Origin: JAFGIT01 sp016929465 [NCBI: Candidatus Coatesbacteria bacterium]
GTDB taxonomy: Bacteria > B130-G9
Length of the DNA: 11,269 bases
Direction of reading: 5' to 3'
NCBI GenBank assembly: GCA_016929465.1
Contig: JAFGIT010000282.1
Location: forward strand, 1-11,269
Position numbers and translations under genes: made by a program. The notes under the pieces are model-generated. The model did not search any database and had not been told where the DNA came from. It saw only the letters and a program-made list of their open reading frames with translations. Shown piece by piece: positions 1-11,269 of this stretch. Every line of letters begins with the position of its first letter. The first letter of the stretch is position 1.

Positions 1-921
1 CATCTCATCGCAGACAACCCGGTGGTCTATGCCATCCTGGACAGGGAGCTCATCGAAAGGCCCGTGATAGCGCCAGTCTTTGAACTCGGTGCCTTTATGT
101 TCAGATATCACCCGTGCCTCATTGCCTAGAACGCTCTCGAGCGTCCCCTTCGACAGATAGACTATTCGCCCGTCGTGTTCCGCCTTCACGTAGGTCAGCT
201 CGGGATTTACAGCGAGGGCGGTGTTCGCGGCGAGGGTCCAGGGGGTTGTCGTCCAGACCAGGAAGAATTCATTGTCACGATCGACGATAGGTAGGCGCAG
301 AAATACTGATGGGTGCTTGACCTCGCGATATGAATCTACCATCTCATGCTGTGAGAGTGATGTCCCGCAACGGATACACCACGGCATGACGTGGGTCCCA
401 CGATATAACCACCCGTTGTCGTGACAGCGCTTGATGAACATCCAGATGTATTCGATGTTCGTGTCGGTCATGGTGAAGTAGCTGTTGTCCCAATCCATCC
501 ACTGCCCGAGTCGCATCGACTGATCGGCGATGACCTTGGCGTATTTCTGCACCCGCTCCTTGCACTTCTCCGAGAACTTGTCGAGGCCGAATGCACGGAT
601 GTCGCTCTTGCAGTTCAGGCCAAGGTCCTTTTCGACCTCGACCTCGACCCATAGCCCCTGGCAGTCGAAGCCATTCTGATAGCGCTGATGGAAGCCGTTC
701 ATGCTCTTGTAGCGCACAAAGATGTCCTTATAGGTGCGGCCCCAGGCGTGGTGAACACCCATCATATTGTTGGCCGTTATCGGACCATCAAGAAATGAAA
801 AACGGGGATTGTCTTTATTCTTCTCGACCAGCCGCTTGAAGGATTGGCGCTCCTTCCACAGATTCATTATCCGTGGCTCGATCTCGTGCTGATCGTAATT
901 CGTTGAGATCTTCCTAAACAT
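1..921 (-). CDS. ileS: Isoleucyl-tRNA synthetase, N-terminal 307 codons (cut by window edge)
   Basis: Class I aminoacyl-tRNA synthetase that charges tRNA-Ile with isoleucine in the cytoplasm. The frame is open from the ATG at 919-921 to the left edge, so the rest of an enzyme usually near 1050 residues lies outside. Residues 45-66 align with the canonical DGPPYANG-x-IHIGH-x-KD signature but read DGPITANN, then GVHH in place of HIGH, then AWGRTYKD. GFDCQGLWVEVEVEKDLG (residues 84-101) matches the conserved block following the Rossmann strand. PWCIRCGTSLSQHE (180-193) precedes the CP1 editing domain, which opens with the conserved threonine-rich WTTTPWT at 223-229. The KMSKS loop and anticodon-binding domain are not in the window. 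The start is supported by a near-perfect Shine-Dalgarno; an ATG 7 bases upstream meets a stop after three codons. A dedicated promoter lies upstream. Identity is secure; the GXHH form is a known variant of some IleRS2-type enzymes. Confidence 0.96.
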   Translation of the reverse strand, partial: MFRKISTNYDQHEIEPRIMNLWKERQSFKRLVEKNKDNPRFSFLDGPITANNMMGVHHAWGRTYKDIFVRYKSMNGFHQRYQNGFDCQGLWVEVEVEKDLGLNCKSDIRAFGLDKFSEKCKERVQKYAKVIADQSMRLGQWMDWDNSYFTMTDTNIEYIWMFIKRCHDNGWLYRGTHVMPWCIRCGTSLSQHEMVDSYREVKHPSVFLRLPIVDRDNEFFLVWTTTPWTLAANTALAVNPELTYVKAEHDGRIVYLSKGTLESVLGNEARVISEHKGTEFKDWRYHGPFDELPVQDGIDHRVVCDEM

Positions 922-923
922 CA

Positions 924-932
924 ATCATCTCC
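924..932 (-). promoter_or_regulatory. ileS ribosome binding site
   Basis: On the minus strand GGAGATGAT sits two bases before the ileS ATG, with the GGAG core seven bases from it. It matches the anti-Shine-Dalgarno complement GGAGGTGAT at eight of nine bases. It decides the start codon, since the ATG inside the site itself leads to TAG after three codons. Confidence 0.85.
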
Positions 933-1154: not shown

Positions 1155-1910
1155 TCACTCATCTATCAATAGATTGGATATCCCCAGATCGCAGAGCGGG
1201 GTGAAGCCGCCGGCCTCTGTCACTCCTGCCAGGAACATATATGAGCCAGCGTTATCAAATGGTTCTCTCGGCAGGACGAATCGCCATATATCATTCATTT
1301 TTGCCTTGGTGCCGGCCATTATATTAGTGTCTTCCAGCAAAGGTGACAATCCGCGAGCCCAATCCAGATCGCCATTCACAGACCATATTTCACCGACCGG
1401 GTCGATAATGACCATATACACGTCGCCGTGAAGAGTGCTGCCGTTGACGGACACCGAGAAGCCTATCGACATTGTATCCCCGAAGGAATATTCGTCATGC
1501 GGGAGGATGAACTCCAAGTACGGGTCCGCCTCGAGTTCGAAGTTTGCAGATGCAATCTCGGAGATGAGATCGAATGTCCCCGGTTCGAAGGCGCCGAGCA
1601 AGACAGTGTATTCCCCCTCTCTCGGCTGGCCTAATAGAAACTCTGGAATCGGCATATCATGCAGAGTTGCTTCAACGTAGAGGTCTGCATCGATGGCCAA
1701 GTTGGGGATCCAGGTCATGATCCCCGGTTCCCATGTGTCGAAGCCCACGGCGGACCAGTAGGTCGCATTTGGGCCACCGAAGTCGTAGGCGAGCACCAGA
1801 TAAATGTCGGCCGTCAGAGCATCGCCATCGTTCTCAGCAGCGACGGTGATGTCGAATGTATCCCCGAACAGATAGCCGTCTTCGTCTGTTGCCGCGGTTA
1901 GAGAAAGCCC
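1155..1910 (-). repeat. Two tandem copies of a C-terminal module shared with the neighbouring giant protein
   Basis: Copy A is residues 1059-1185 (about 1530-1910) and copy B is residues 1186-1309 (about 1155-1529). Both open with Y-x-F-G-D (GYLFGDTFDI, EYSFGDTMSI), then have a strand of the form D-[IV]-Y-[LM]-V. A Trp-rich middle with a W-S or D-W element follows, then G-x-Y-x-[VF]-L-x-[AG]-[AV]-[FT]-E, and a close such as EPGTFDLISEIASANFELE (A) or EAGGFTPLCDLGISNLLID (B). The function is not recognised. Position at the extreme C-terminus suggests a sorting, assembly or anchoring role, which is inference. Confidence 0.75.
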
Positions 1911-4900
1911 TGAGGCCTCTCTTCCGGTCGCCAGCATCTCAACCTGCAGCACCGGATCATTCGGATCATTCGATATTATCTCGAGCACTCCGGAGTAGTT
2001 GCTAACCGACGCGGCAATGAAACTGACTTCTACCGAGATGGGGTCATCAGGTTGAATTGTCAGAGGAAGCTCGATGTCACCGAGATCGACGGAGAAGCCC
2101 ACAGCATCCTCCTCGATGCTATAGACCTCGAGATCAGCATTGCCCTTGTTGCCGATGGTCACCGTCTCCGAGACTGTAAGCCCAATCCTGACCTCTCCGA
2201 ATTCGATACTCGTCGGCTCGGCGTAAATGGAGGGTGCTCTGAATATCACATCGATCTCGCAATCAGGCGCATCCAGCAATGCCTCCTCGTTACCGGCCAC
2301 ATCTCGCCCAATCGTGGCGAAGCCATAGGTTCCTTCCTGAGGTATCTCCGGAGTGAATTCGAATATCCCCTCGGATAGGCCCGAGACCAGGCCGCTATTC
2401 GACCACTCTCCATCAGCGTATCGGTACCAAAGATAGACGCAGTCGAGGCCGCTAAGTTCCTCGTTGACGTAATATGTGACCGCAATCGGGAAGGAATTCG
2501 CCTCATCCGGGCAGGAACAGGTCGAGATTGGGGCCAGTGAATCAAGGAGCGTGCCGGCCTTTGCCTCATCCGGAAGAGGCTCGACATTGCCGGCTCTATC
2601 GTAAGCCCTCGTGGTGAATTCATAATATCCATCCTCTGCAAATCGGGGCGAGAATTCGAAGGAGCCGGTCTCAGCCTCCGATTTGAGAGAGCTGTATTTC
2701 CAGGTGCCGCCATCGAATCGATACCAGAGTTCGACAGAATCGACGCCGCTCATCTCGTCACTCGCGGCGAAAGTGACTTGTATCGGAAATGACGTGAGCA
2801 TCTCGGGTGATTCGCATGTAGAGCTCGGTCTAACGGTGTCAATTACGGTCGTGCAATCGGCAGAGTCGGGCAACGCTTCCATATTGCCTGCGCCATCTAC
2901 CGAGATTGTGCTGAATTGGTATTCCCCGTCTCCTTTCGCCTGGAATAGGAACTTGCCGTCGGCAGTAGAGCGAAGCTGCCCGGAATTCAGCCACTCTCCG
3001 TCGTCCATTCGGTACCAGAGACCCACCGAAGTGATGCCGCTGGTCTCATCCGAGGCCGAATAGGAGACATTGACCGAGAGGCTGTCCGAATAGGGGTTGC
3101 ATGAGGCCTCGGATTCGGGAGATTCGGAATCGAATATGATTGTCGTCTGGGCAGCGAGTGGCACACCTGCCGAATTGCCTGCCACGTCCCTTCCGACTGC
3201 GGCAAATCCATACTCGCCCTGCCCGCCTTCGAATGAATAGGTGAATGTCCCCGAAGCTCCGAATGATGCGAAGCCGGCCTGCGACCATTTGTCAGAGCCG
3301 GGCTCGAGATGAAATAGAGTAACCTCCGCGACGCCTGACAGGTTGTCCGATGCGGCGTAGTCAATCGTGATCGTATCTGAAGATGCGAATTCAGGAGCCA
3401 TGATCAAGGCCTCTGGGGACGTCCAGTCCACCATTGTCTCACAATCCGGATCACCTCCCATGAGTTCTTGATGGCCGGCGCGGTCAGTCGCGACCGAGAT
3501 GAAGCTGAATACGCCTTCTGTTGCCACTTCAGGTGCGAATCCCTTCGCGCCCCTCGGACCCTCGATATCTCCGATGGGAAGCCACATGTCTCCATCTAAT
3601 GAGCAGAATAGCGATATCCGAGTAACAGCCGTGACCGCGTCGGTTGCTATTGCGGTGAGCATCAATGGGAAGGAGGTCGCGTATTGCGGCGATTCGACCT
3701 TGGATTCAGGTGGAGTGAGGTCAACCGCGAGCTGCATGTCCGGCACGAGAGGAGTGGGCTCCTGATTTCCGAACGCGTCGGTCCCAATCGACCACAGCTC
3801 GTACACACCTTCGTCAGAGTAAGTGAACTCCACGGTGCCTGTGGCGATGGTGGCCGGACTGCACTCGATCCTCTCCAATATCGCCGACTGGCCTTCGAAG
3901 GAGTACCAGACCTCCGACGCGACAACGCCCGAAAAGAAGCGTCCCTCTTGATGCTGGTCGCTCGATTGATAGGAGATATTCACTGGCAGCGTTGCCGTAA
4001 CGCCAGGACCGAGTACGGATGATGCTGGTTTCGACGCATCGACGACGGTTTCGCAGTCGTAAGCGTTTGGCAAAGGCTCCTCGTCGCCATCGCCATTATA
4101 GGCTACGGTTGAGAACCGGTAATAACCGTCTCCAAAGGACGTGTTGAAAATCAGAGAACTCTCCGTGGCAAAGGAAACGATCCCGCTATTGAACCAATCC
4201 TCAGGCCAAGTAATTCCCTCGAGTGAGAAAATGAGCCACAGCTCGACATGGTCGAATCCCGCATCGCCGATATCGACGACGTACGACACAGAAAGGGTGG
4301 CGCCAGAGGCTTTGGGTGGGGTCCAACAGCTGGAAAGCGCATATCCTGGGTCGTATGCAGTCCTGCAATCAGCAGTGTCTTTCATTGATTCGACATTGCC
4401 CGCGCGGTCATACCCTCTTGTGAAGAACTCATAATTCCCGGCCCCTCCCTCGGGGGTATAGTCGATTGTCCCGGCAGGTCCATATTGATAATCACCGACG
4501 TATTCCCACTCCTTTGCTACAGCCGTGGTCGTGCCGTTATCCTCCGTGAAACAGAAGTAGAGCATCACGCCCTCTCCATCGGAGAAGGAATCCGAGATCT
4601 CGTAGTCTATGCTGAGCTCGGCGTCATTGCTGGCGTCCGGAGAGTTGCACCGGGATACCGGAGGATCTGTGTCATACCCGACGGCGCATGCCCTGTCATC
4701 GGAGATCTTCTCCTTGTTGCCGTCGTTATCGGTCCCGATCGCCACGAAGCGATACGTCGCGTCACCTCCGGAGAAGCTATAGACGAATTCCCCCTCGGCT
4801 ATGTCGCTCTCGAGGCCGGTGTCCTTCCATTTTGCTCCATCGATTGATGCGAAGAGCTGAACCACTGCAACACCGGAATCATCATCAATTGATGAGTACT

Positions 4901-5084
4901 GCACGCTGATCGTGGCGGCCGATGTGAATTCAGCTGATACACTGCATGATGTTTCAGGTGGGCTCTGGTCAAGAATATCGCGCCCATCGGATTCAGAGAG
5001 ACCTTCTCCCAGAGAAAGGGACGGCAGCACGATCGTAAATGCCAGAACCACCCAGACGATTTTCATCGCCATCTTTATTTTCAT
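1155..5084 (-). CDS. Secreted multi-domain protein: nine Ig-like repeats, HYDIN-like domain, two C-terminal modules
   Basis: A protein of 1309 residues with no named homologue that I recognise. Residues 1-26 form a signal peptide: three lysines, hydrophobic core IVWVVLAFTIVLPSLSL, likely cleavage after SLG. Residues 42-946 are nine Ig-like repeats of about 100 residues with recurring SGV..V.LWYR.DG..W, GEY.F.T..DRAGN.E.LPD and DC.T.VD motifs, resembling OmpL47-type or other bacterial Ig-like repeats. Residues 950-1055 look like an ASPM-SPD-2-HYDIN domain (PTSIEFGEVRIG, later SNDPNDP). Residues 1059-1185 and 1186-1309 are two copies of a module also ending the neighbouring giant protein. No LPXTG, C-terminal membrane helix or S-layer homology motif is visible, so how it stays on the cell is unknown. 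The ATG at 5082-5084 is chosen over one 33 codons upstream because it has a good RBS and begins the signal peptide. Likely a secreted structural or adhesive protein; ligand unknown. Confidence 0.9.
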   Translation of the reverse strand: MKIKMAMKIVWVVLAFTIVLPSLSLGEGLSESDGRDILDQSPPETSCSVSAEFTSAATISVQYSSIDDDSGVAVVQLFASIDGAKWKDTGLESDIAEGEFVYSFSGGDATYRFVAIGTDNDGNKEKISDDRACAVGYDTDPPVSRCNSPDASNDAELSIDYEISDSFSDGEGVMLYFCFTEDNGTTTAVAKEWEYVGDYQYGPAGTIDYTPEGGAGNYEFFTRGYDRAGNVESMKDTADCRTAYDPGYALSSCWTPPKASGATLSVSYVVDIGDAGFDHVELWLIFSLEGITWPEDWFNSGIVSFATESSLIFNTSFGDGYYRFSTVAYNGDGDEEPLPNAYDCETVVDASKPASSVLGPGVTATLPVNISYQSSDQHQEGRFFSGVVASEVWYSFEGQSAILERIECSPATIATGTVEFTYSDEGVYELWSIGTDAFGNQEPTPLVPDMQLAVDLTPPESKVESPQYATSFPLMLTAIATDAVTAVTRISLFCSLDGDMWLPIGDIEGPRGAKGFAPEVATEGVFSFISVATDRAGHQELMGGDPDCETMVDWTSPEALIMAPEFASSDTITIDYAASDNLSGVAEVTLFHLEPGSDKWSQAGFASFGASGTFTYSFEGGQGEYGFAAVGRDVAGNSAGVPLAAQTTIIFDSESPESEASCNPYSDSLSVNVSYSASDETSGITSVGLWYRMDDGEWLNSGQLRSTADGKFLFQAKGDGEYQFSTISVDGAGNMEALPDSADCTTVIDTVRPSSTCESPEMLTSFPIQVTFAASDEMSGVDSVELWYRFDGGTWKYSSLKSEAETGSFEFSPRFAEDGYYEFTTRAYDRAGNVEPLPDEAKAGTLLDSLAPISTCSCPDEANSFPIAVTYYVNEELSGLDCVYLWYRYADGEWSNSGLVSGLSEGIFEFTPEIPQEGTYGFATIGRDVAGNEEALLDAPDCEIDVIFRAPSIYAEPTSIEFGEVRIGLTVSETVTIGNKGNADLEVYSIEEDAVGFSVDLGDIELPLTIQPDDPISVEVSFIAASVSNYSGVLEIISNDPNDPVLQVEMLATGREASGLSLTAATDEDGYLFGDTFDITVAAENDGDALTADIYLVLAYDFGGPNATYWSAVGFDTWEPGIMTWIPNLAIDADLYVEATLHDMPIPEFLLGQPREGEYTVLLGAFEPGTFDLISEIASANFELEADPYLEFILPHDEYSFGDTMSIGFSVSVNGSTLHGDVYMVIIDPVGEIWSVNGDLDWARGLSPLLEDTNIMAGTKAKMNDIWRFVLPREPFDNAGSYMFLAGVTEAGGFTPLCDLGISNLLIDE
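2247..4961 (-). repeat. Nine tandem Ig-like protein repeats of about 95-105 residues
   Basis: Approximate unit bounds in residues of the 1309-residue protein are 42-138, 141-246, 251-350, 353-456, 458-554, 556-653, 655-750, 752-848 and 850-946. Most units start with PP-x-S-x-C-x-SP or a variant, carry SASDE-SGV..VELWYR in the first half, and finish with AGN-x-E-x-LPD..DC-x-T-x-[VI]D. Units 7-9 are the most alike, suggesting more recent duplication or selection; units 3 and 4 are the most divergent. The DNA has drifted enough that only patches, such as those near 2580-2630 and 4385-4440, are recognisably repeated at base level. Confidence 0.85.
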
Positions 5085-5088
5085 TATT

Positions 5089-5096
5089 TCACCCTC
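5089..5096 (-). promoter_or_regulatory. Ribosome binding site of the 1309-residue secreted protein
   Basis: On the minus strand GAGGGTGA ends four bases before the ATG at 5082-5084, close to the ideal GGAGGTGA. The GTG inside it runs into TAA after two codons. This site, with the signal peptide that follows directly, fixes the start at 5084 rather than at an upstream in-frame ATG that overlaps the promoter. Confidence 0.75.
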
Positions 5097-5145
5097 ACTA
5101 ATAAGAATTCCTTGTAAACGTGGAGCATGAGATGTCCCTAAACAC

Positions 5146-5173
5146 ATTATACCGGTCAAATGTCTATATATAA
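5146..5173 (-). promoter_or_regulatory. Probable promoter of the 1309-residue secreted protein
   Basis: On the minus strand a perfect TATAAT (5146-5151) lies 62 bases before the chosen start codon. Sixteen bases further upstream TTATAT (5168-5173) is a weak -35 (TTGACA consensus). The surroundings are strikingly AT-rich against the background. Transcription would start near 5139 and give a leader of about 55 bases. An archaeal reading, with the AT-rich block as a TATA box, is possible but less likely given the clear bacterial promoter before ileS. The weak -35 suggests dependence on an activator or on the AT-rich element; that is inference. Confidence 0.55.
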
Positions 5174-5178
5174 TATAG
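5164..5178. promoter_or_regulatory. AT-rich inverted repeat overlapping the -35 region (possible operator)
   Basis: Six-base arms CTATAT and ATATAG are separated by three bases (ATA on the plus strand). They overlap the putative -35 element of the surface-protein promoter. The symmetry would suit a dimeric regulator, but an AT-rich promoter region easily produces such a repeat by chance. Confidence 0.25.
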
Positions 5179-5279
5179 CACATTTGTCGCCGATCTACCT
5201 AATCGTCCAGTCAGAATCTCTGGAGCGAGAAAGCGCACGGCTAAATTGGTCAACAGATGACAGGGGAAAATGTCGATCA

Positions 5280-5334: not shown

Positions 5335-8300
5335 TTATCGCTCTATTGTCGAGGATACGGAAGCTATCTCCCCCAAGATATCGAGGGTCCCTGCCTCCGC
5401 AAACGCAGCCATGAACAGAAGATCACCCGAGGGTATCCACGGCGCAACCGTAGCATCAATTAGGACAATATCCTCTTCGGCGTAATGCGCGGGAAGATCG
5501 ACCGAGCTAAAGGTCCAATCTGGGCCCCAATTAGGGTAAAATAACAGGCTTTGCCCGATCATGACCGCCACATACAGGTCGCATGAGCGCTCCTCACCGG
5601 GATTATATTGGTTACAGGTCAGATGCAGCCTGTCACCGTCCGATAGCAAGGCGGAATTCAGGTATATCTTGGCCGTAGCCGGCATTTCCGTTGCGATCAG
5701 ATGAGACGCGCTGTTCGAGATGGGCGACAAATTGCCCGCATTGTCAGTCGATCGCACCGCGAAGTAAACTGTCGTCCCGGGATGAGGTATATTCGCTATC
5801 ATACGCTCGTACCCGTTGGGTTCGGATGGTGAAAATCCAGCCGCGAGGTCAACGGCAGCGCCCCAATTCAAATCGGTAATCGGCTCGATCCACGCTCTCG
5901 CCTGGTAGCTCTTGCACCGCGAACCAGAGACGGCATCCCCTGGAGCGGACCAGATGAGCTCAATCTCAGAGCCGTCGCGGCCGTAGCGAGCCATCAGGTC
6001 GTCGATCTGTTCCGGTCCCGCAGTGTCGAGCACGGAGAATGCGCAGCCCTTCGAGCATGTGAGCGTATCGATCTCGAGTTCGACTCGAGCCGTGTGAGAA
6101 CCGGCAATCCACGAGCCAATCGACCCGGAAAAGACGTTATAGCCGGAGCTAAGCGCAACCGGTAGGACAACCAGCGAATTCTCGTCGATGAATAATTCGA
6201 TCACCGCATCAACTGGTCCCCTGGTCGGATTGCCCTGAGAGATATCCACGCTATTTTTTATCCCCGCCAGCGCGAATAAGTCGCTCTCATTACGTCTCCT
6301 TGCGGAAGATGAGTTCGTGGCATAGACCTTAACCGTGATCACGACATCCTGCGACTCGGATTGATACTCAGCGAATTCGGTTTCGATCGAGACCAAGTTA
6401 GCATCACCCACGTCGAAGTGCTCGGAAGCCGTGGAATGGACGATCGACTCATCATTCGCATCACAGAGGGCGAACTCGACCTCATGGACGCCGAGAGAAC
6501 TAGTGAAGAGCTCGCCCGATATTGTGAGTATGTTCTGATCTCCCGCTGTCAGATGCAATTCATCTGAGCCGAGTCGGTATATGTCCCCGTCAGGTGCGGT
6601 TAGCGTCGCCGTCGCCCGAATATTCGCCGCCACGTTGGAGGCGACGCGCAGAACCGATGTGATGGTCTCTCCAGGCTCGTAGGATGTCTGATCGAGGACT
6701 GCATCGACGATACGTATGAATGGGCCTGCTACATCGAAGCTATATGAGTAGGTGACGCCCTGCTCCTCGCAGCCGCAATCGCGTATCTCGTAGTCGATGG
6801 AGTGTGTCCCTATAGGGAGCGCATCTGGGAGGTCGAAGCTGAAGTTGATGCTGCTCCCACTGAGAGTGTGTTGCGCTGAATAGCCCGGTGCGGACACATG
6901 AAGCAGTCCCGATAGTGATGTCTCCACCGTTGCATTCACCGTGTCGCCTTGAGTGTAGACCTGCTTGTCGGTGAAGAGAGTGAGATTGTCGCTCTTGGCC
7001 TCCTCGAGGTAGATTGTATTCAGGTAGATCGAGCGGCCGGAGTCTGCATCATGTATCCCGACGTCGATCCTGTGCCCTCGCTCGAACGTCACTGGTACTT
7101 CGAATGTCAGATGGTTCGACTCTGCGAGTGTGAAGCTCTGCTGCTCATCGTATTCGGTGAATTTCACCGCGGCATAGAGTGGGATTCCATTCGCCATTGG
7201 CTCGTTGGAATTCACATCTAATGCAAGGAGTGCGGTCTCGCCAGACGAGTACGTCTCTTTGTCGAGTCCGAGATCGACCGAAATATCGACGCCAGTCACG
7301 TTTATCGTGAGATAGCCGACGACTCCATTCACATCATAGAGAGCCGTGTATGCGCCTCCCGCGAGGTCAACGGGCACCGTGACTTCCACACTGAATAAGT
7401 GCTCTTCTGTAGGCTCCAGCCAGTAGTTCTGATGCTCGTCGGCGACGTCACCCCAATCGAAGTGCAGATTGAACTCCGCGCCGACATTCCCAGCATTCGC
7501 GACGTCGAAGAGGAGATTCATTTGTTGGCTGGCGACGACCTCCTGGGAGTCGGGAGGGGTCACGATGGGGGTCGCGTCCAGCGATAGCTGCAGGTCGGCC
7601 TCTGCGAGTGGGGCACCCGTTCCGCCGAATGAGACAGTCAGTGTGTGATCCCCGAGGGGGGCGCCGACGACATTCACATCAAAGGTCACGACTTGCGATC
7701 CACCGGCCTCCACGGTCAGTGACTGCTGAGCGCTGCAGAAGTCGGCCGTCACGCTCAGGACTCCCGAGACGTCGTCCCCGGCGTCATTCTGAACGGTTAT
7801 CTGGAGGGGGATGGAGCCGTCGCTGTAATCCCCGAGGGTCGCCCACAGGCCGACTGAACGCCCCGAAGTGATATTGATGGTCTCGAAGCCCGTTTCGAAC
7901 CGGTTGCTATAAAATAGAGTGTAATCGCCGGCCTGGAGGCCATCGAAGGTCAAGGGCTCCCTTACGGTCGAATTCTTCGGCACACTCGGAGAGACGGTTC
8001 TGTTGCCAAATGAGTTCCCCGATGAATCTTCGAGCCTGAAGTTAGTCTCGACGGTGGTCTGCCAATTCGAGGCATTGACGAATTCGACATCTATCGTCGC
8101 CGTTGGCGCCAGGAAGGCTTCCCCAATCGGAATGCCGATTATTACGTTCGGGCCATAACTAATGGTGAAGGAATGAGTATTGGTATAATCACCTGAAATC
8201 TCGATCGAATATGACTTGTCAGCGGCAATCTGCTCTGTCCATTCGAGACATTCCGAGTCCTCCGGCTGCAGATGGACCAAGCTGTGGTCGCTTCCCTTAT

Positions 8301-11269
8301 CGACTGTGAGATTTGCGCCGATCTCAGGGCTCGAGTTGATGAGCATTAGGGTGATCTCAAAGGGATCATCCCCGACTTCCGTCGGAGCGATCAAAATGTC
8401 CGATATGCTGGGGCCCTCGATGGAGATGGTCTTACTCGATGTGGCGCCAGCGCATTCCGCGGTCAAGGCAATCTCGCCGGCGGCAGGGGCTGCGAAACTT
8501 GTGCCGTATTCGAAGCTGTCACCCGGCCCCAAATCGAATGCATTCGAGATGTAAATCGGGACTCCGGCGGCGAAGATGGTGATGGATAGCCCATTCAGAG
8601 GATTATCCGTATAATTGATCGCCTCCCCGAAGATTGAGATGGCGTCTCCCGGTGCATACATGTCTGCGTCGGTGTCAATAGAAAGGGCAAGTGCGTCATC
8701 GCCGAAGACTTCGAAAGAATACGAATCAGTCGATAGGGTCTGACCGGATGAGTTGCTCAGCGTTCCGAGCAGCCGGTATCGACCCGATGATAAAGGCCCC
8801 ACGGCCTCTGAGATATTCAACGTGCCGTCCTCTGGGACGGATACTGTGACGGACTTCTCCCAGAGCGCGCCGTTTCGATCGGGGGTGAGCGCCTTGCTGG
8901 CGGGGGCTGCAATGTAGAATACCGCCGGATCGCCGAAACCACCGAAGCCCAGCATCGAGGATGTCAGCAGCCCTCCGTCTGCGGTCAATGCCATGTTCGG
9001 CCCGCCGGGCCCAAAGATGTGGCCAGTCTCCAGCTTGAAGACGGATTCGCCGCTTTCATCAAAGCACTCTATGCCGCCGAAGTGCATCGTGTAGATCTTC
9101 TCGTCAGCGTCAATGACGATGCCTGAAACAGATGTGTAGTTGTCGCTCAATTGAGCCGTCCAATTGAGAGACCCACCCGGCTCCACGGAATAGAGAACCG
9201 TATCGGCGGCGAAATAGACGGTTCCGTCCTCGGCGAAGGAGGCGCCGGAGACTGGGTCCCCAGCACCGATATAGCTCCACTCGATTGCCCCGGAAGAGGG
9301 ATTCAATGCGTATAGCTCGAATTCACTCCCCGTGCTCGCGCCGGCGATCACGGTGCCGTCTTCCGAGATTGCCGGCCCACCTATGAACATCAGGTTCGGT
9401 GCTGCGGTATAACTCCATCGGAATGCCCCTTCACTCGAATGAGAGACGACTTGCGCGATGCCATCCGTCTTCATTATCGTGTTGTATATATTCCCTGAGT
9501 CGTCACACGCGGTGAGTCCCAATGGGCATCCCGCCAGGCCAACGTCGAACCTTGTCGAGCCGTCCGGTTTCACCGCACACAGAGTCGGTGGATTTCCGAA
9601 CGCGAAGATCACATCCCCGGACGGTGCAATCGTTAGCTGGGTCAGATCACCGGAGCCGCTGACACCGGTGGACCAGACCAATTCGCCGGAGGGGCTCAAT
9701 CTATGGAGCTCTGTATATTCATACCCGCCAAAAGCTCCATAAACGTCGCCATCAGCGCCAAGGCAGGGCGACATGCGCAGCGAATACTCGGAAGGGCTGT
9801 AGGTCCACCAGAAAGTCCCATCCTGGTGCAGCGCCAGAATCTGATAGCTGTCGAAGAGGTATATGCCTCCGTTACCCACGACAGGGGCGTTATTTATGTC
9901 TCCGTTGAATTCATAGGACCAGCGCAGGTTGTCAGTGGTCGGGCCTACGACCGACCCCAACCCAGACTTCTTGTGGTCCTTTTGCCCCTGCTGCCATTCG
10001 ATACCACCCGCGTTTATCTCGACAGTATCTGACGCGATCTCGCCCTCGGCATCGGACACGTAGGCCGTCGCCGTGAAGGTGCCACTGGTGTTGTAGATGT
10101 AATCTGTGGATTTCTCGCTGCTCGAGCCAACACCATCACCGAAATCCCAGAGGTATTCGTATGGCTCGACACCGCCTGAAACGTCCATATCGAATTGCAC
10201 GGTGAGAGGTGGCTGGCCTGACACAGGGTCTGCAGATGCTGATACCCACAGCTCTCCCGCTTCCCCTGCGCGAACCACCTGCAAGAGAAGCGTACCACTG
10301 AATGATTCGCCGCCGTTCGTTATCATCGCATCCGCCTCGATGCTTTCCCCGGTTTGATAGGCAGACTGGTCGGTGTGAACGTCGAGGCCCGGTTCGAGCC
10401 CCGATATCTCGATAGCTCTACTCGTCTCGCCGGATGCTCCAGAGACCGCGTCAGTGGCCTCAGCAGTCAAAACATAAGCGCCGGACAGCGCATCGACTGG
10501 AATGGCGAAGTAGAAGTAGTCGAATGCGAGCGGCGATAGCGAAGCAGAATGTCCGTTGCTCTCGTAGGTGATAGCGGCCCCCCGGTAGAGTGTCATGTCA
10601 CAGCCTATCTCAGCATTTCTGCCGCCAAGATTGGTGACTTTCACGACGATGCTCTCCCCCGCGGAGACGGATGTGTCGAGAACCTCGAGCTTCACCCCGC
10701 CCGGCGGCACATTGAATGCAGCCTCATCGCTTCCGGACCCGCCACCCGTCAAGACAAAATCGACGTTAACCGCGTGGGAGCCTTCGCCGATCGATTGAGG
10801 CAATGCAGTGGTTGTGAAGCAAGCCGTCTCGTCTGCTCCCGGTATGACCGAGACCGATTGCTGCGAATCATAGGCAATATCCGGCACTGAGCAGTTCACC
10901 TGGTAGTTCTGCCTGAAGGAACCTATATTGCGAATGCTCGCATAGATCTCTACCTGCTGTCCAACTCCGTAATTCTGCTCTGACGTGCTAACTGAGAACG
11001 ATGCAAGACAGTCCACAGCTTCGTGCCAATTCGTGCTCCCGAATGAATCGGTGGCGCTGAATTCGAAGGTGTAAGTGCCGAAGGTCGGCTGCGGAACCGG
11101 ATTAATGGTGAACTGGGCTGTCTGGGTCTCATTGCTGGGCACATTGTAAGTCGCGGGGGTGAATTCGGTGTTCAAGGACCCATCCGGATTGTAGAGGCTA
11201 AGAGCCAGCGACCCACCGGATACGTCCAATATGCTGCTGTTGTTCTTTATCCTGACCGATATGGCTGCC
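5335..11269 (-). CDS. Giant modular secreted/surface protein with PKD domain, PQQ-like propeller and FN3 (N-terminus outside window)
   Basis: The frame is open to the right edge and ends at TAA (5335-5337): 1977 residues are visible and the start and any signal peptide lie outside. Residues are numbered here from the codon at 11227-11229. Residues 1-280 are CARDB/Ig-like sandwiches. Residues 328-409 are a PKD domain with WDFGDG at 361-366. Residues 410-775 are a PQQ-like propeller. From about 800 to 1735 there is a long array of beta-sandwich domains, several opened by Y-x-x-G-[DE] as in macroglobulin MG or CARDB domains. Residues 1738-1845 are fibronectin type III (VYFAVRSTDNAGNLSPISN). Residues 1853-1964 are a module shared with the next gene's product. 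No protease, glycosidase or macroglobulin thioester domain was recognised. Probably an extracellular binding or scaffold protein; the ligand is unknown. Confidence 0.9.
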   Translation of the reverse strand, partial: AAISVRIKNNSSILDVSGGSLALSLYNPDGSLNTEFTPATYNVPSNETQTAQFTINPVPQPTFGTYTFEFSATDSFGSTNWHEAVDCLASFSVSTSEQNYGVGQQVEIYASIRNIGSFRQNYQVNCSVPDIAYDSQQSVSVIPGADETACFTTTALPQSIGEGSHAVNVDFVLTGGGSGSDEAAFNVPPGGVKLEVLDTSVSAGESIVVKVTNLGGRNAEIGCDMTLYRGAAITYESNGHSASLSPLAFDYFYFAIPVDALSGAYVLTAEATDAVSGASGETSRAIEISGLEPGLDVHTDQSAYQTGESIEADAMITNGGESFSGTLLLQVVRAGEAGELWVSASADPVSGQPPLTVQFDMDVSGGVEPYEYLWDFGDGVGSSSEKSTDYIYNTSGTFTATAYVSDAEGEIASDTVEINAGGIEWQQGQKDHKKSGLGSVVGPTTDNLRWSYEFNGDINNAPVVGNGGIYLFDSYQILALHQDGTFWWTYSPSEYSLRMSPCLGADGDVYGAFGGYEYTELHRLSPSGELVWSTGVSGSGDLTQLTIAPSGDVIFAFGNPPTLCAVKPDGSTRFDVGLAGCPLGLTACDDSGNIYNTIMKTDGIAQVVSHSSEGAFRWSYTAAPNLMFIGGPAISEDGTVIAGASTGSEFELYALNPSSGAIEWSYIGAGDPVSGASFAEDGTVYFAADTVLYSVEPGGSLNWTAQLSDNYTSVSGIVIDADEKIYTMHFGGIECFDESGESVFKLETGHIFGPGGPNMALTADGGLLTSSMLGFGGFGDPAVFYIAAPASKALTPDRNGALWEKSVTVSVPEDGTLNISEAVGPLSSGRYRLLGTLSNSSGQTLSTDSYSFEVFGDDALALSIDTDADMYAPGDAISIFGEAINYTDNPLNGLSITIFAAGVPIYISNAFDLGPGDSFEYGTSFAAPAAGEIALTAECAGATSSKTISIEGPSISDILIAPTEVGDDPFEITLMLINSSPEIGANLTVDKGSDHSLVHLQPEDSECLEWTEQIAADKSYSIEISGDYTNTHSFTISYGPNVIIGIPIGEAFLAPTATIDVEFVNASNWQTTVETNFRLEDSSGNSFGNRTVSPSVPKNSTVREPLTFDGLQAGDYTLFYSNRFETGFETINITSGRSVGLWATLGDYSDGSIPLQITVQNDAGDDVSGVLSVTADFCSAQQSLTVEAGGSQVVTFDVNVVGAPLGDHTLTVSFGGTGAPLAEADLQLSLDATPIVTPPDSQEVVASQQMNLLFDVANAGNVGAEFNLHFDWGDVADEHQNYWLEPTEEHLFSVEVTVPVDLAGGAYTALYDVNGVVGYLTINVTGVDISVDLGLDKETYSSGETALLALDVNSNEPMANGIPLYAAVKFTEYDEQQSFTLAESNHLTFEVPVTFERGHRIDVGIHDADSGRSIYLNTIYLEEAKSDNLTLFTDKQVYTQGDTVNATVETSLSGLLHVSAPGYSAQHTLSGSSINFSFDLPDALPIGTHSIDYEIRDCGCEEQGVTYSYSFDVAGPFIRIVDAVLDQTSYEPGETITSVLRVASNVAANIRATATLTAPDGDIYRLGSDELHLTAGDQNILTISGELFTSSLGVHEVEFALCDANDESIVHSTASEHFDVGDANLVSIETEFAEYQSESQDVVITVKVYATNSSSARRRNESDLFALAGIKNSVDISQGNPTRGPVDAVIELFIDENSLVVLPVALSSGYNVFSGSIGSWIAGSHTARVELEIDTLTCSKGCAFSVLDTAGPEQIDDLMARYGRDGSEIELIWSAPGDAVSGSRCKSYQARAWIEPITDLNWGAAVDLAAGFSPSEPNGYERMIANIPHPGTTVYFAVRSTDNAGNLSPISNSASHLIATEMPATAKIYLNSALLSDGDRLHLTCNQYNPGEERSCDLYVAVMIGQSLLFYPNWGPDWTFSSVDLPAHYAEEDIVLIDATVAPWIPSGDLLFMAAFAEAGTLDILGEIASVSSTIER
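5338..5673 (-). repeat. C-terminal module, third copy, ending the giant protein
   Basis: The last 112 residues repeat the plan of the two modules that end the neighbouring 1309-residue protein. It has a strand DLYVAVMIG, a Trp-rich centre (FYPNWGPDW), then GDLLFMAAFAEAGTLDILGE followed by IASVSSTIE. The close is nearly superimposable on EPGTFDLISEIASANFELE of the other protein. Here the opener is SDGDRLHL rather than Y-x-F-G-D. Confidence 0.75.
8905..10002 (-). repeat. Eight-repeat PQQ-like beta-propeller within the giant protein
   Basis: After an opener GQKDHKKSGLGSVVGP that is typical of bacterial PQQ-like repeat proteins, eight repeats of about 40-46 residues follow. The pattern is W-x-Y, P or S, D-G-x-[VI]-Y, then L-x-[AR]-x-x-P-x-G-x-x-x-W. 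Blade-closing segments include GTFWW, GELVW, GSTRF, GAFRW, GAIEW, GSLNW and GESVF; the eighth repeat is the most degenerate. Eight repeats fit an eight-bladed quinoprotein-type fold. No PQQ ligand residues could be assigned, so a binding or scaffold role is more likely than dehydrogenase activity. Confidence 0.75.
10003..10248 (-). other. PKD domain segment of the giant protein
   Basis: Residues 328-409 read VSASADPVSGQPPLTVQFD, then EYLWDFGDG, then a Y-x-x-x-G-T-F-T-A-T-A-Y-V-S-D strand. This is the standard polycystic-kidney-disease Ig-like fold found in bacterial and archaeal surface proteins. It directly precedes the propeller and probably acts as a spacer or interaction domain. Confidence 0.9.

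Follow-up and report, generated by a model that had tools for sequence, protein, structure and literature searches.

A candidate terminal sorting or attachment domain of Ig/FN3-like fold on exported proteins of Candidatus Coatesbacteria and a few other bacterial lineages

The window, that is, the whole stretch of 11,269 nucleotides that was analysed, is a contig (JAFGIT010000282.1) of a draft genome assigned to Candidatus Coatesbacteria. Its minus strand carries the start of an isoleucyl-tRNA-synthetase-like gene and two adjacent genes for large proteins, both of which end in the module described here (Table 1). In the smaller protein, a predicted signal peptide is followed by Ig-like repeats, an ASH/HYDIN-like Ig domain and module copies A and B; the giant protein has a PKD domain, a PQQ-like propeller, an A2M-BRD-like region and module copy C. 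The domains before the modules are Pfam matches; over the three module copies themselves, the Pfam scan of the window proteins gave no match. For the smaller protein, the signal-peptide heuristic chose the third ATG of the predicted stretch as the start. Its Ig-like repeats (window positions 2223-5006) recur on the fetched contigs, where 145 copies are spread over 12 frames, all of them in module-bearing proteins.

Table 1. Genes, domains and module copies in the window
Feature	Position	Strand	Remarks
Isoleucyl-tRNA-synthetase-like gene, start	1-924	-	Named by sequence reading
Frame of the smaller protein	1155..5183	-	1342 codons; 1309 aa from the ATG at 5084
Module copy B	1158..1529	-	Last domain of the 1309-aa protein, reaches the stop codon; profile 84 bits
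Module copy A	1530..1916	-	Directly before copy B (tandem); profile 86 bits
ASH/HYDIN-like Ig domain	1950..2222	-	Just before module copy A; PF22544 8.7e-8, PF15780 9e-8
Predicted signal peptide of the smaller protein	5007..5084	-	Basic start and hydrophobic stretch, sequence reading
Frame of the giant protein	5335..11268	-	No less than 1977 aa; the 5' end lies outside the contig, which ends where the window ends
Module copy C	5338..5694	-	Last domain of the giant protein; profile 98 bits

A terminal module shared by two adjacent large proteins had been proposed in a preliminary description of this DNA, and it is confirmed here as a unit of about 110 residues, present as the tandem pair A and B and as the single copy C. 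The local alignment of A with B scored 12.8 standard deviations over the mean and that of A with C 6.7, in both cases a score reached by none of 500 shuffles; the B-C alignment is weak when taken alone, its score being reached by 37 of 500 shuffles. The bit scores in Table 1 were obtained with a profile of 68 copies, A, B and C among them, whose members share 18-53% identity with the first row of the set. Copies A and C have in common D-[IL]-Y, a Trp-rich centre and a close of the form [EA]-x-G-T-[FL]-D-[IL]-x-x-EIAS. In copy B, DVY and the Trp centre are likewise present, but the close is AGGFTPLCDLGIS and EIAS is missing. Hence, the motifs initially listed for all three copies hold for A and C, while EIAS is found in two of the three. 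In an alignment of 108 copies, the conserved columns are Y8, G11-D12, N22, D30-x-Y32, P38-x-G40, W48, P54, G84-x-Y86 and G96-T97.

AlphaFold2, supplied with five sequences, predicts a ten-stranded beta-sandwich of two antiparallel sheets, as in Ig/FN3-like domains, with a pLDDT of 85 for the copy from the metagenome-assembled genome AUK292 and of 82 for copy A. The conserved G-x-Y corresponds to the tyrosine corner of such folds. Foldseek and VIA-align placed the model of the AUK292 copy in the large class of Ig/FN3-like folds, with VIA Z scores of up to 10.2 over 103 residues at an rmsd of 2.8. RbmA, the N-domain of dextranase, the Ig domain of AlkC, the carbohydrate-binding domain of Wzt and CARDB were tied at a Z of about 9-10. 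The biofilm scaffold RbmA and the Wzt carbohydrate-binding domain are among the top neighbours (Z 9.0-10.2 over 102-105 residues), but their identity to the module is 11-15% and their scores tie with those of Ig domains of unrelated enzymes, so that no functional inference is drawn from them. A generic Ig/FN3-like fold, as modelled here, says nothing specific on function.

At the sequence level, the module profile matched no PDB sequence at E < 0.04, and in sets of 68 and 38 copies no Pfam or NCBIfam model covers the module beyond weak matches. These were to MG2 (best E 0.00088, in 2 of 68 copies and below the cut-off of 32.8 bits; in the Pfam scan of the window, E 0.00011 corresponds to 22.9 bits), Wzt_C (17.3 bits against a cut-off of 30.4; E 0.005, 2 of 68 copies), DUF4785_2nd (7 of 68 copies, with a best E of 0.001, and 5 of 38 copies, with a best E of 0.003), Big_7 (E 0.012 in 2 of 68 copies) and Big_3_5 (15.4 bits against a cut-off of 35.5). 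Extracellular domains of the CARDB, MG2 and FN3-like kind are mostly internal repeats; they resemble the module in fold class, with MG2 as a weak sequence match, but CARDB and fn3 gave no match at E 0.1 in either set of copies. Terminal anchoring repeats of the SLH, LysM and CBM type can be used at either end and in several copies, as can the module, but are absent from its Pfam matches at E 0.1. Narrow literature queries returned no description of the module, which does not establish its absence from print. The initial impression that it belongs to no named family is thus right in so far as no Pfam or NCBIfam model covers it, but the fold is an ordinary Ig/FN3-like one.

The module is abundant in the window genome. 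A search with copy C alone over the 3.19 Mb of its own genome gave 79 places at E 0.1, and the 68-copy profile scored at least 150 of 212 first-look candidates. At E < 1e-3, at least 165 copies in 146 frames were counted on fetched contig stretches (106 contigs, 854 kb), which were selected for holding copies. Both ends are present in 109 of the 146 frames and the 3' end in 137, the latter being the basis of the C-terminal counts; those with a 5' end, 118 including the 109 complete ones, were scanned for export features. The genomes are fragmentary drafts, and the E-values of local profile searches vary with iteration. At one locus (L019; G000:C379:3891-4247 and 3072-3923) an in-frame TAG interrupts a module gene, with the FGE-sulfatase (FGE) part in the next open stretch, and on contigs C333 and C47 module frames are directly followed by FGE frames without module. 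Given these cases, some module paralogs may be decaying.

The preliminary description had raised the question whether relatives of the module are confined to the extreme C-termini of proteins with signal peptides and to certain phyla, and whether they co-occur with a particular secretion gene. The link to signal peptides was found: in the window genome 112 of 118 module frames have a signal-peptide-like start, against 118 of 332 other frames called on the same contigs, and without further membrane segments 105 of 118 against 71 of 332, as judged by a home-made heuristic that was the same for both sets and whose control positives include membrane proteins. The control frames stem from greedy longest-frame gene calling. 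In a second phylum, the corresponding numbers are 45 of 51 module frames and 64 of 154 others. In agreement with the earlier remark that neither window protein has a C-terminal membrane helix, our own hydropathy rule detected no membrane-like segment in the last 45 residues of any of the 118 module frames, compared with 26 of 332 controls. A lipobox is present in 3 of 118 module frames and 10 of 332 controls. Together, these features suggest that a lipid anchor or a C-terminal helix is not the usual means of attachment.

Within the proteins, the module is biased towards the ends. In the window genome, a copy lies within 30 residues of the protein end in 85 of the 137 frames with a 3' end (median tail 5). 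Among the 109 complete frames, 55 carry the module only at the C-terminus, 34 only directly after the signal peptide and 4 at both ends, giving 59 with a C-terminal copy and 38 with a copy behind the signal peptide; in 16, two of them with a copy near the N-terminus, it is located at neither end by a rule of our own. In the second phylum, all 57 sampled frames with a 3' end finish in the module, on stretches that were fetched around the best listed matches and not at random. Confinement to extreme C-termini is therefore seen in the second-phylum sample and in most frames of the window genome, but not in the frames with copies behind signal peptides or at neither end, which speak against the module being just a C-terminal signal. 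As a control, Ig-like repeats from the smaller window protein were found to end none of 12 frames and a PKD seed none of 2; since all of these frames carry the module, this control is largely circular and is given no weight.

The N-terminal copies are clustered on a FastTree tree of 244 copies spanning about model positions 12-95, which carries labels only for the classes C-terminal, tandem and N-terminal (162 and 59) and on which class N outside the window genome (G000) denotes position in the frame alone: 12 state changes were counted, compared with 46-59 in 100 label shuffles. This suggests relatively few founding events. The FGE-sulfatase domain is found in none of the 55 C-terminal-only frames of the window genome, in 16 of the 34 N-terminal and in 7 of the 16 neither-end frames, and among the frames inspected it lies behind the module, on its C-terminal side. 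This domain has a C-type-lectin-like fold. In the window genome, several FGE-sulfatase C-termini (loci L020, L032, L072 and L078) vary near their R-G-G-x-W...G-F-R end, a type of region that is diversified by retroelements in other systems; a check for a diversity-generating retroelement behind FGE domains gave no reverse transcriptase match in the window genome, one in G001 and two in G002.

Tandem C-terminal copies are a feature of very large proteins, occurring in 10 of 13 frames of at least 1300 residues and in 2 of the 72 frames below that length (Fisher p 6e-9). The latter two are 5'-truncated, and among complete frames the numbers are 6 of 8 and 0 of 51. This link between size and tandem copies has other possible causes, since giants may repeat any domain.

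The proteins that carry the module are otherwise diverse. Across 87 of the 109 complete module frames of the window genome, 27 Pfam families were matched (overlapping models included), with right-handed beta-helices, FGE-sulfatase, propellers, PKD, sortilin-like domains, peptidases M28 and M20 and redoxin among the cargo. In other lineages, 38 of 49 module frames matched 44 Pfam families, and the cargo includes papain (C1), M6, M14 and subtilase (S8) peptidases, PLD, peptidyl-arginine deiminase, fn3, beta-helix and one cohesin. Such a range of unrelated cargoes is what one would expect of a domain for sorting or attachment.

In a survey of 386 sampled genomes, whose per-genome counts are lower bounds, the module was matched in 10 at 1e-8, eight of them with at least 8 copies. 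Hence, where the module occurs, it is mostly present in many copies. The ten comprise all four sampled members of the window's family, the genomes G052, G081, G091 and G222 (at least 8 copies each) and G027 and G356 with single matches. The three other members of the window's family hold at least 111, at least 111 and 39 copies, and this family appears to be the only one of its phylum among the sampled genomes. In the second phylum, which includes G222 and G081, five of eight genomes from two families carry 56, 74, 79, 89 and 101 copies; the other three, from other families, have none at 1e-6. G052, the sole sampled genome of its phylum, has 14 copies with a wider profile. A contig scan located the module in AUK292 (JAGHCW01), which is taken to be the same genome as G002. 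By position, the loci fetched first gave 23 C-terminal, 2 tandem and 7 N-terminal copies in G001, 9 C-terminal and 5 N-terminal in G002, 11 C-terminal, 2 N-terminal and 1 other in G091, 5 C-terminal, 2 N-terminal and 3 other in G052, and exclusively C-terminal copies in G222 (15), G081 (8), G027 (1) and G356 (2). The 378 genomes without expansion contain two scattered single matches at 1e-8. The G027 match has an E-value of 3.6e-10, and none of three genomes of its phylum matched at 1e-10. At L085, L200 (G027) and L201 (G356), divergent C-terminal copies, one and two, occur in two lineages without expansion. Viral contigs, scanned twice, held no module relatives. With respect to phyla, the earlier expectation is thus supported, the module being restricted to few lineages and numerous there. 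All 11 module genomes tested encode Omp85, which makes it probable that the hosts are diderms and that exported proteins have an outer membrane to pass.

We compared the module with the C-terminal tails of the type IX secretion system (T9SS). In the available text of PMC4804311, the tail of P. gingivalis RgpB is described as a C-terminal Ig-like beta-sandwich of seven strands; in this, as well as in its tens of copies per genome where present, the T9SS tail (TIGR04183) is like the module. The two differ in length (72 positions for the tail and about 110 for the module) and in the use of the module after signal peptides and in tandem. At E 0.1, TIGR04183 matched none of the 68 and none of the 38 copies, and hhalign against T9SS tails of six genomes gave probabilities of 0.5 and 0.3%. 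SprA_N (PF14349) had a match in 21 of 80 genomes, above the cut-off in 18 of them, but in none of the 10 module genomes, which are 83-99% complete. It had replaced TIGR04189, which is uninformative as it had no match in five genomes nor in any control. With eight module-rich genomes, partly related to each other, the absence of SprA is not statistically striking by itself; the weight lies on the defining T9SS translocon not being found where the tag is most abundant. T9SS tails were matched in 31 of the 80 genomes and, among the 10 module genomes, by a single match in G003. The G003 genome shows no further signs of a T9SS, and the lone match (1.7e-10) is possibly a draft contamination. The supposed co-occurrence with a secretion gene was not observed, the T9SS translocon being the one tested.

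The reading that we favour, with moderate confidence, is that the module is an undescribed Ig/FN3-like terminal sorting or attachment tag of about 110 residues on Sec-exported proteins of diderms in which no T9SS translocon was found. The signal peptide would export the cargo and the tag would fold, usually as the last domain. A putative envelope receptor, which could be a translocon of the outer membrane or else a polymer or protein of the surface, would then bind the folded tag and thereby place or hold very different cargo in or on the envelope. The giants carry two or three tags, as would be expected if binding is additive. The role in secretion, sorting or surface attachment that was suggested from the start agrees with export, terminal bias and the restriction to few lineages; the N-terminal copies and the missing partner secretion gene speak against it. 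Use behind the signal peptide in the window family and the larger number of copies on giants favour binding over a strict C-terminal export signal, while the strict C-terminality of the second-phylum sample favours the export signal.

Position bias and copy number could alternatively result from domain shuffling of a structural Ig-like unit. The module would then be a plain Ig/FN3-like spacer or cap, spread in a few lineages by gene duplication and domain shuffling and without a role in binding or sorting. This is rather unlikely in our view: the generic fold with its several tied neighbours (VIA Z about 9-10), the conservation, which is strongest at turn or corner residues such as N22 and G84-x-Y86, and the copies after signal peptides and inside proteins all agree with it, but a mere spacer does not account well for 57 of 57 C-terminal positions on unrelated cargoes in the second-phylum sample, and for a common spacer one would expect a wider occurrence than the two single matches in the 378 genomes without expansion.

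A further alternative is that the module acts strictly as a C-terminal signal for outer-membrane secretion, which a putative translocon would read, and is a functional counterpart of the T9SS tail. The peptidases and the peptidyl-arginine deiminase on module proteins are reminiscent of T9SS cargo. This alternative would also agree with the second-phylum sample, where the module is always at the extreme C-terminus and mostly on signal-peptide proteins, with the Omp85 of the hosts and with the T9SS tail being itself a C-terminal Ig-like beta-sandwich, as the available text of PMC4804311 has it. We consider it distinctly unlikely, as copies follow the signal peptide in 38 and lie at neither end in 16 of the 109 complete frames of the window genome, giants carry tandem pairs and no translocon candidate was found. 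The tree-clustered N-terminal copies could represent a secondary re-use. That the module is a divergent type IX sorting domain, in spite of the same position, the same broad fold class and similar cargo, is practically ruled out by the lack of SprA_N in all 10 module genomes, the one T9SS tail match among them, hhalign probabilities below 1% and the lack of a TIGR04183 match.

It was through their terminal sorting domains that secretion systems came to be recognised. It is conceivable, though on the doubtful side, that the C-terminal beta-sandwich tag and a putative outer-membrane or surface receptor form a secretion and surface-display route of their own, apart from T9SS, in at least four phylum-level lineages, in two of which some 40 to 165 copies are present per genome. 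The genomes that carry the module provide a concrete list for a receptor search. If the module is merely structural, it would still define a domain family of exported proteins that is very large and has no name. With more than 140 tagged frames in a single genome, no covering model in Pfam or NCBIfam and no match to the T9SS translocon in the genomes that carry it, the module may point to an undescribed route of export or display.
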